NCBI RefSeq assembly: GCF_025457605.1
Contig: NZ_JAMZFY010000001.1
Span: forward strand, 1,550,001-1,614,000
Origin: Haloarcula laminariae
GTDB lineage: Archaea; Halobacteriota; Halobacteria; Halobacteriales; Haloarculaceae
Length of the DNA stretch: 64,000 nt
Reading direction: 5' to 3'
Within the stretch, counting starts at the first letter, position 1. The number at the start of each line of letters is the position of its first letter. The position numbers were made by a program, and so were the translations under genes. A model generated the notes under the pieces. It ran no database searches, was not told the origin of the DNA, and saw nothing but the letters and a program-made list of their open reading frames with translations. Positions 56,022 to 58,486 of this stretch are shown piece after piece.

Positions 56022-57068
56022 TCAGCCGCCCGGAGGGGTGCCCGGGGTGGCGTTCCACACCGGCGTTTCGCGGCTCCGTTCGAACGCTCGCAGCGTCCGC
56101 TCGTCGAGATGAACCAGGTGACACAACGGGTTGCCGGGGTAGACCAGCGGGTTCTCCAGCACGCCCACGAGCAGTCCGGTAAAGGGCGCCGTGACGGTCG
56201 TACTGTCGGTCTTGAACGGGTTCGCGATAGTGCAGATGGTCTCGTCCTCGTAGACGAGGCCGCCACGCTCGTGGTGCATGTCGACGAGGCCGCCGACGTC
56301 GGCTCGAATCCAGGTCTTCTCCTCCGAGTCCTCGATGACGGTCCGCCAGCCCGGCCAGCGGACGACCTCGGTGTCGAGCATCCCGAACTCCGCCAGCACC
56401 GACCGGACGCTGTCCAGCGCGCTGTCGATGAGCGGCCGCTGGAACCGGTGGGCCTCCCCCATCTCGATGGTGATGGTCGGGGTCGCCTGGGCGCTCGCCT
56501 CCCGACGGAGCGAGCCGCTTGGCCCCTCCGAGGAGATGATGACGTTCGACGCGAAGGCGTTCGCGACCCGGGCGACGGCCTCGTCGTCCATGTCGGCCCG
56601 GACGTGTAGCGTGTTGGTTCGGCCACGCGTCGACGTGTGGAAGTCAAGCCCGAAGTCACACGGGTCGACGAAGTTCCGGAAGAGCCGGTAGGCCATCCGC
56701 TTGGCGCTCGTCGACTCCGGGTGGCCCGGGAACGACCGGTTGAGGTCGCGGTCGTAGATGGGGAGATACCGCTCCTGTGCGAGGAAGGCGGGCACGTTCA
56801 ACACGGGGAGACAGACGAGCGTGCCCGCGAGCCCCTCCAGGTCCCACTCGTGGGCGACCTCGCGGACGACCTCGATGCCGTTGAGCTCGTCGCCGTGGGC
56901 CGCCGCCGAGAGAAAGCCCGTCGGTCCGGGCCGTTCCCCGTTGATGATGGTCACGGGCATCCGCACGGGGTCACCGAGATACGTCTCGCTGACAGTGTAC
57001 CGGACGTTCTGCGTCTCGCCCGGGTCGACACGGCCCCCGTCGTAGGTGAACGGCTCCGCCTCGTCCAT
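56022..57068 (-). CDS. Succinylglutamate desuccinylase/aspartoacylase-family hydrolase
   Basis: 348 aa, zinc carboxypeptidase fold. Zinc/catalytic motifs: SAAAHGDELNGIEVVREV, YDRDLNRSFPGHPEST, DFHTSTRGRTNTLHVR and a Glu near TPTITIEMGEAHRF. Removes an acyl group from an amino acid or acyl-peptide. The C-terminal ~110 residues contain a beta-barrel (TAPFTGLLVGVLENPLVYPG). The start at 57068 (MDEAEPFTYDG) is preferred; the upstream in-frame extension overlaps the promoter of the divergent gene. Divergent by 86 bases from the RimK-retropepsin gene, a pairing that recurs in genomes and suggests a shared pathway. Confidence 0.84.
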   Translation of the reverse strand: MDEAEPFTYDGGRVDPGETQNVRYTVSETYLGDPVRMPVTIINGERPGPTGFLSAAAHGDELNGIEVVREVAHEWDLEGLAGTLVCLPVLNVPAFLAQERYLPIYDRDLNRSFPGHPESTSAKRMAYRLFRNFVDPCDFGLDFHTSTRGRTNTLHVRADMDDEAVARVANAFASNVIISSEGPSGSLRREASAQATPTITIEMGEAHRFQRPLIDSALDSVRSVLAEFGMLDTEVVRWPGWRTVIEDSEEKTWIRADVGGLVDMHHERGGLVYEDETICTIANPFKTDSTTVTAPFTGLLVGVLENPLVYPGNPLCHLVHLDERTLRAFERSRETPVWNATPGTPPGG

Positions 57069-57154
57069 GAAGCTACAACAGTGACACACGACATATAAAC
57101 CTCCGGACGGCGGACCCGCCAGACCTTTCCTGTCAACGCCGGAACTAGCGGGCA

Positions 57155-58486
57155 ATGACGGAGGATATCACCGTCGGTGTGTTGAGTCTCCATTCGAGCA
57201 AGGAGACGAAGGCGATTCTCAACGCCGTCGACGAGCTGGGCTACGACACGGCGTGGCTCCGCGAGGAGAACACGACCGTGCGGGCTACCGATGGACGCAT
57301 GACGCTGGAACCGGACGTGGACGTCATCGCCAACCGACTGTTGCTCTCGAACGACGAACATCCGATGGAGGGGGTCGGGCTGGCGCTGACGCTCAACAAC
57401 CTGGTGCCGATGCTCAACGAGCCGTTGGCGGCGACGACGGCGCTGCACAAGTTCGCGAGCGCCGCCGCCCTGGCGGAGGCCGGCGTCCCCATCCCCGACG
57501 CCGTCCTCGCGCTCTCGAACGAGCGGCTCAACGCCGAGCGGGCGAAGTTCGGCGAGCGGGCGGTGTACAAGACCGCCATCGGCACCCACGGCGGCGGCAC
57601 GTGGATGGTCGAACTCGACGACCCGGTCAACGCGCAGGTCGGCGACCGTCACGCCTTCCTCCAGGAGTATCTCGACCACGACGAGACGCGCCACCACGAC
57701 CTCCGGGTGTACGTCGTCGGCGACCGCATCGTCGGGGCGATGAACCGGTACGCGCCGGAGGGGGAGTGGCGGACTAACGTCGCGCTGGGCGGCGAGGTCG
57801 AGGACATGACCGGCCGGCTCCCCGAGACGGTCAGTCAACTGGCGCTCGAATCGGTCGACGCCATCGGGCTCGACTACGCCGGCGTCGATATCGTCCAGGG
57901 CGAGGACGGCTACTACGTCCTGGAGGTCAATCCGACGGCCGGCTTTCGGGGGCTGTTCGCGGCCAGCGGTATCTCCCCCGCGCCCTACATCGCCCGGCGT
58001 GCCATCGAGCGGGCCGGCGGCGCCGTCCCCGACGGCGAGGTCGAGCGCCTCGCCGACCGACTCGACGACTCCCGGCCGGCCGCGATGCCCCCCAAACCCA
58101 CGGAGAAACGCGCCGAAAACGTCGTCGTCGGCTACATCGAGGAGGTCGTCGTCTCCGGGACCCGGGGCAACAAGAGCGTCCTCGCCAAGTCCGACACCGG
58201 CGCGACCCGCACCAGCATCGACGCCGAACTCGCCGCCGAAATCGGGACCGGACCCATCCTCGACATCGTGAAGATAAAGTCGGGCAGCCTCAAGTCGGGC
58301 CGCTCGCGGCCGGTCGTCGACGTGGTGGTCGGGCTGGGCGGCACCCAGCACACCGTCCCCGCCAGCGTCGAGGACCGCTCCCACATGGACTACCCGGTCC
58401 TGCTGGGCCGTGACATCCTCAAGAACTATCAGGTCGACGTCAACCACCGCGCCGACGCCGACCACGAGGTCGACACCGAGGAGTAG
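57155..58486 (+). CDS. RimK-type ATP-grasp ligase fused to a retropepsin-like domain (RimB-like)
   Basis: 443 aa. The N-terminal ~300 residues are a RimK-type ATP-grasp ligase: LHKFASAAALAEAGVP, GTHGGGTWMVELD, the metal motif VLEVNPTAGFRG. It should form an amide bond between an amino acid and a peptide or small acid. The C-terminal ~130 residues (from about 318, VVVGYIEEVVVSG) form a retropepsin-like fold with the aspartyl motif SDTGATRTSI (D347-T348-G349), as in the RimB/COG4067 group. Both are in one chain here. The divergent gene encodes a desuccinylase-like hydrolase. The substrate is unknown. Confidence 0.85.
   Translation: MTEDITVGVLSLHSSKETKAILNAVDELGYDTAWLREENTTVRATDGRMTLEPDVDVIANRLLLSNDEHPMEGVGLALTLNNLVPMLNEPLAATTALHKFASAAALAEAGVPIPDAVLALSNERLNAERAKFGERAVYKTAIGTHGGGTWMVELDDPVNAQVGDRHAFLQEYLDHDETRHHDLRVYVVGDRIVGAMNRYAPEGEWRTNVALGGEVEDMTGRLPETVSQLALESVDAIGLDYAGVDIVQGEDGYYVLEVNPTAGFRGLFAASGISPAPYIARRAIERAGGAVPDGEVERLADRLDDSRPAAMPPKPTEKRAENVVVGYIEEVVVSGTRGNKSVLAKSDTGATRTSIDAELAAEIGTGPILDIVKIKSGSLKSGRSRPVVDVVVGLGGTQHTVPASVEDRSHMDYPVLLGRDILKNYQVDVNHRADADHEVDTEE

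Follow-up and report, generated by a model that had tools for sequence, protein, structure and literature searches.

The locus lies in Haloarcula laminariae (contig NZ_JAMZFY010000001.1), within a window of 64,000 nucleotides (positions 1,550,001 to 1,614,000). Two divergent genes are separated by a short gap. Their features are listed below in window coordinates.

56022 to 57068, minus strand: AstE/AspA-type zinc hydrolase, 348 aa, with H58, E61, H144, E202 and N110-R111 intact and with the module-specific residues R107 and N152
57069 to 57154, no strand: divergent intergenic region, 86 bp, with an AT-rich TATA-like element about 27 bp upstream of the hydrolase ATG
57155 to 58486, plus strand: RimK-RimB hybrid, 443 aa, an ATP-grasp alpha-L-glutamate-type ligase followed by a retropepsin-like (RimB/PF05618) domain
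58106 to 58435, plus strand: the retropepsin-like domain, about residues 318 to 427, with DTG at 347-349 and the psi-loop LGRDIL at 417-422
58436 to 58483, plus strand: variable acidic C-terminal tail ending in Glu-Glu (VNHRADADHEVDTEE), a proposed acceptor or regulatory tail

The preferred start of the hydrolase is the ATG at 57068. The position of the TTTATA-like element upstream of it is consistent with a leaderless haloarchaeal hydrolase transcript; the element is not conserved across the class. No clear element of this kind was found for the ligase in 57069-57154, and a comparison of the gaps across the class did not find a conserved shared promoter. Among the matches listed, the gap measures 86-274 bp in 65 of 81 genomes and 0.8-3.4 kb in 13 of 81. 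Its sequence is not conserved, and the wider gaps that were read closely hold other genes. In one haloarchaeal family (L047-L052) an insert of about 3 kb separates the two genes; in L051 it encodes a GNAT acetyltransferase whose C-terminal part is zinc-ribbon-like, and also a flippase-like membrane protein. A sequence-only reading of this DNA had proposed that an 86-base shared promoter keeps the pair together. The length of 86 bp is correct; the promoter as the bond between the genes was given up, since the gap varies, is unconserved and admits other genes.

The ligase and retropepsin-like domains of the hybrid

The hybrid scored 99 bits against Pfam RimK (cut-off 21), 148.5 bits against the subfamily model TIGR00768 for RimK family alpha-L-glutamate ligases (cut-off 143.4) and 42 bits against the PF05618/RimB-type model (cut-off 27). 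Both domains pass curated cut-offs, and the fusion described in the sequence-only reading is thereby verified. The score against the S6--L-glutamate ligase equivalog NF007764 was 70.8 bits, far under its cut-off of 331. AlphaFold models of the hybrid from a single sequence (pLDDT 33) and of the retropepsin domain from five sequences (pLDDT 44) were unusable.

The conserved active-site residues of the ligase are E257/N259, R61, S65 and R184, and the ATP-grasp residues E257, N259 and R184 are found in all 107 homologues. The residues contacting the glutamate chain in Pseudomonas RimK are S7, R8, S14, R64, S68, R189 and N262 (PMC10092738). Five of these seven are kept in the hybrid as S11, R61, S65, R184 and N259, and two are changed, R8 to L12 and S14 to an invariant E17. 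The five kept contacts indicate that ligation is likely of the Glu type, but with R8 and S14 replaced, acceptor recognition may differ, and the acceptor could be another one than that of Pseudomonas RimK.

The replaced acceptor-side contacts also speak for a small-molecule pathway, in which the ligase would join Glu to an N-acylated amino acid or a cofactor, the hydrolase would deacylate, and the retropepsin would be regulatory or structural. Mammalian RIMKLA/B make N-acetylaspartylglutamate, and CofF and MptN are further small-molecule ligase parallels. The hybrid reached 118 bits with the MptN model and 56 bits with the CofF model, in favour of such a pathway, but these scores lie below the cut-offs of 350 and 300, as does the LysX score of 110 bits below 276.

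Pfam names PF05618 a 'zinc protease'; RimB and RloA, the members studied best, belong to the retropepsin-like aspartic proteases (PMC11957791, PMC12239564). RimB is a polyglutamate-specific retropepsin shown experimentally to be an endopeptidase; the Pseudomonas enzyme requires at least five contiguous Glu, the D31E mutant is dead, and RimB stimulates poly-alpha-glutamate synthesis by RimK (PMC11957791). An hhalign comparison of 32 haloarchaeal domains with nine bacterial RimB proteins gave a probability of 96.8 and an E value of 2.7e-10, with DTG aligned over DTG and LGRD over LGR. The haloarchaeal profile also matches the RimB-like structures PDB 9g59, 2pma and 9g58. The DTG Asp is D347, as first noted. 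Loss of this motif from most homologues had been named as a refuting observation, and the motif is not lost: D347 is present in 105 of 107 full-length homologues, Thr or Ser occupies position 348 in 104, and G418-R419-D420 is invariant in all 107. The few active-site losses fall in extra RimK-RimB paralogues (L135, L136, L137, L140), in which DTG is degenerate (EPV, NPA, DPT, DTA) but GRD is intact; the terminal Glu is also gone in two of them.

Retention of the catalytic Asp at this rate argues that the retropepsin domain is not merely structural, which counts against the small-molecule pathway. A make-and-trim system for a peptide or an acylated amino acid had been suggested earlier, with the peptidase role left open. 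The unit itself is retained here. Because RimB is a shown polyglutamate endopeptidase, writing and erasing of polyglutamate is much likelier than the turnover of a generic acylated amino acid.

The divergent hydrolase and its linkage to the hybrid gene

The hydrolase scored 152 bits against AstE_AspA_cat (PF24827; cut-off 25). An acyl-hydrolase-like gene divergent from the hybrid had been reported, and an intact AstE/AspA-type gene is indeed there. Its 'desuccinylase' label was not upheld, as no AstE, AspA or DoeB model passes its cut-off: the scores were 90 against 403 bits for the DoeB equivalog, 33 against 180 for aspartoacylase and 24 against 170 for the AstE subfamily. The enzyme shares its fold and zinc/catalytic residues with AstE/AspA hydrolases and DoeB (NCBIfam TIGR02994; PDB 3na6, 6twl), and differs from them in falling far below these equivalog cut-offs. 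DoeB is the nearest named model, a point in favour of the small-molecule pathway. The hydrolase of the Salinivibrio rimB-rimK-aspA operon, with 36% identity, gave 208 bits, compared with 90 for the DoeB model, and the best bacterial matches were hydrolases of such operons and their close relatives. H58, E61, H144 and E202 are invariant across 97 linked sequences, together with several Arg that are shared with the Salinivibrio operon hydrolase. R107 and N152 are kept in the archaeal operon hydrolases and replaced in all five unlinked AstE/AspA relatives compared, and so separate the module-linked enzymes from these. The hydrolase tree, with its long branches, did not recover all the module-linked enzymes as one clade; they may still have a single origin.

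AstE/AspA enzymes are known as deacylases and N-acyl amino acid hydrolases, which again favours the small-molecule pathway. They are built on the M14 carboxypeptidase fold and split an amide, liberating an acidic amino acid that carries a free carboxylate. By analogy with this fold and this reaction, the simplest role for the haloarchaeal enzyme would be that of an exo-deglutamylase; the removal of an N-acyl cap is the alternative. The tubulin polyglutamylation of eukaryotes, in which TTLL ligases act with M14 carboxypeptidases, is a parallel by analogy only, with an ATP-grasp enzyme as writer and an M14-fold enzyme as eraser.

Relatives of the hydrolase were also seen in other settings. On a Natrinema plasmid (L085), a hydrolase paralogue occurs unaccompanied by the ligase; two cation:proton antiporters and two TrkA-domain proteins are encoded nearby. 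A Pseudomonas phage genome (L151) carries an AstE/AspA-type gene annotated doeB.

Both genes, and the intact fusion, were found in 268 of the 292 genomes of the class (strong presence being an E value below 1e-100, with counts read off tables), which indicates that the fusion is not due to chance. Neither gene was found in 21 genomes, which hold just a distant hydrolase paralogue. The hydrolase stands alone in three, with visible ligase remnants beside it, and the ligase stands alone in none. The joint absence spans 13 genera; the joint loss of neighbouring genes can possibly be one deletion. Linkage was counted in the 81 genomes present among the matches listed for both genes, and the pair is divergent on one contig in 78 of them. 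The survey of gene-pair conservation proposed earlier therefore shows no random separation. A contig scan of whole genomes turned up just four close species, and a search of viral contigs yielded no relative.

At the loci that were read, sdhC is often the neighbour on one flank and a DNA glycosylase gene on the opposite flank. This would suit two independent housekeeping genes with no functional link, which general synteny keeps next to the sdh operon and the glycosylase gene, and the presence of other genes between the pair in one family would suit them as well. However, among 20 paralogue loci there are 5 (five genomes; L127, L141, L142, L143, L144) that hold a second, diverged pair at a different site, again divergent, with identities of 46-49% for the ligase and 67-71% for the hydrolase. 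General synteny therefore cannot account for the link. The joint absence in 13 genera with zero ligase-only genomes, and the same enzymes in operons of bacteria and other archaea, also contradict independence. This reading is largely contradicted already and is very improbable. In four of the five second-pair loci, a small HTH-like gene comes next after the pair, along with a protein that bears a motif resembling 'YECPDCDN...MSCHDEPMERVTD'.

The RimK-RimB fusion was sought within the phylum and found in haloarchaea only; stand-alone PF05618 proteins occur in other archaea. In one archaeal family (methanogen-type), the order rimB-rimK-aspA is found in seven of eight operon-type loci, and the eighth is without aspA. 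On bacterial replicons, the three genes also lie side by side in Salinivibrio, Photobacterium DA100, Vibrio nigripulchritudo, V. europaeus, Phaeobacter and Acaryochloris. These operons in marine bacteria and methanogen-type archaea indicate that the hydrolase belongs to the module. There it is paired with canonical RimK and RimB, which tells against the small-molecule pathway, and we consider that pathway unlikely. The earlier proposal that ligase, peptidase and hydrolase form one system is borne out by the conserved pair, the second unlinked paralogous locus and these three-gene operons.

The RimK proteins of the archaeal operons (L172-L176, L183-L185) share about 75% identity with RimK of marine bacteria, and the one that was scored reached 479 bits against the S6-glutamate ligase model (cut-off 331), in genomes without S6. 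Judged from these sequences, horizontal transfer and a different substrate are likely for them. Taken together, the rimB-rimK-aspA operons of L067, L071, L074, L172, L173, L174 and L176 have as neighbours MscS channels (L172 has three such channels around one operon), magnesium transporters of the MgtE, CorA and CNNM types, a potassium channel, a P-type cation ATPase and universal stress proteins. These neighbours, with their genes for ion transport and mechanosensitive channels, suggest, only as a lead, a role in salt or osmotic stress.

The acidic C-terminal tail and the candidate acceptor

Ribosomal protein S6 (PF01250) was not found in this genome or in ten other archaeal genomes tested (11 in total); all ten controls that matched were bacteria. 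Since these archaea are without S6, they must use a different acceptor. The end of the hybrid itself was compared among homologues. Glu closes 101 of 107 hybrids (94%); it stands second last in 78% and third last in just 20%. The tails otherwise vary in sequence and in length, from 1 to 38 residues. The background of C-terminal Glu in this genome is 40 of 264 proteins (15%; genes from 400 kb plus the window), and in neighbouring orthologous gene families it is 0-17%. The counts come from homologues of shared ancestry and are not independent, so that the Fisher value for the tail bias is descriptive only. Unfused RimK, which has TRGKG-type ends, does not carry the tail, and neither do the two bacterial RimBK hybrids that were read. 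A Shine-Dalgarno origin of the GAGGAG ending was ruled out, because both Glu codons are used at the hybrid ends, the final codons including GAA, and because the following gene is convergent in the window.

Encoded S6 acceptor tails are DNADE in Pseudomonas and GDSEE in E. coli (PMC11957791), and the haloarchaeal ends are comparable. The conserved Glu-Glu C-terminus is the best candidate for the acceptor that the sequences offer; free glutamate and another protein or peptide are the alternatives. It is tentatively proposed that the hybrid is self-primed, although this has well under an even chance. The hybrid would lengthen its own Glu-Glu tail, acting in cis or inside an oligomer, and the tail would be shortened by the RimB domain and the hydrolase, so that the protein would carry or release poly-alpha-glutamate, much as glycogenin starts glycogen. 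The terminal bias, the low background, the absence of S6 and the absence of the tail from the other RimK proteins favour self-priming. The relatedness of the homologues and the general acidity of haloarchaeal proteins tell against it, as do methanogen-type genomes that have RimK without S6 and without such a tail. Other possible roles of the tail are those of an inhibitory pseudo-substrate and of a binding tag.

A proposed polyglutamate module of haloarchaea

The likeliest explanation, at about even odds, is that the locus represents the RimK/RimB polyglutamate module in a form found across the haloarchaeal class, in which RimK extends, RimB cuts internally and the hydrolase trims or deacylates. 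As inferred from its family and conserved site, the RimK domain would use ATP to add L-glutamate to a carboxyl end. The fused RimB domain, probably as a homodimer, would make internal cuts in glutamate chains, as shown for bacterial relatives. The M14-like AstE/AspA-type hydrolase, as the third enzyme, would free glutamate at the chain ends or strip an acyl cap. The polyglutamate reading is weakened by the ligase score well under the S6-glutamate ligase equivalog, by the two changed chain contacts and by the deacylase activities known for AstE/AspA enzymes. It is also weakened by a published bacterial RimBK hybrid, which did not glutamylate Pseudomonas RpsF (PMC11957791).

RimB, RimK and a RimB-RimK hybrid are already known. 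The hybrid of Desulfotalea psychrophila and other bacteria, from a survey of bacteria only, also has both domains in a single chain, and its RimB part cleaves polyglutamate (PMC11957791). The domain order differs: by its published definition (PMC11957791), RimBK has the RimB domain N-terminal to RimK, whereas the haloarchaeal RimB domain is C-terminal. No AstE/AspA-type hydrolase is adjacent to the hybrids at the three bacterial loci read (Thioclava, Aureibacter, Persicobacter), and no Glu-Glu tail was found in the two whose ends were read. Pseudomonas RimABK likewise combines a glutamate ligase with a retropepsin that trims glutamate tails, but it has separate genes, S6 as its substrate, the c-di-GMP phosphodiesterase RimA and no AstE/AspA-type hydrolase described (PMC4741518, PMC7343187, PMC11957791). 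A RimB-independent loss of glutamate tails was reported in Pseudomonas (PMC7343187). RloABC of Pseudomonas aeruginosa, which has an osmotic-stress phenotype, also places a retropepsin with an ATP-grasp protein in one operon; its secreted protease and membrane-bound inactive transglutaminase have no counterpart at the haloarchaeal locus (PMC12239564). No mention of RimK together with succinylglutamate desuccinylase, and no description of protein polyglutamylation in haloarchaea, was found in the open literature. The amidoligase survey of Iyer and colleagues (2009) may describe related gene neighbourhoods.

What differs here is the reversed domain order, the archaeal class-wide distribution, the hydrolase as a constant partner and the Glu-Glu tail. 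Work on RimK and RimB has mostly treated them as a switch that modifies the ribosome by acting on S6. The RimK/RimB pair with a conserved third enzyme in archaea without S6 indicates that S6 cannot be the universal target. The analysis names the AstE/AspA-type hydrolase as a likely missing part of the RimK/RimB module, and the Glu-Glu tail of the hybrid as a simple, testable candidate acceptor. The full proposal, a polyglutamate synthase whose built-in acceptor tail replaces S6 and is trimmed by the fused retropepsin and a dedicated zinc exo-hydrolase, is rather doubtful. If true, a self-primed synthase would give salt-loving archaea a reversible polyanion store or signal.
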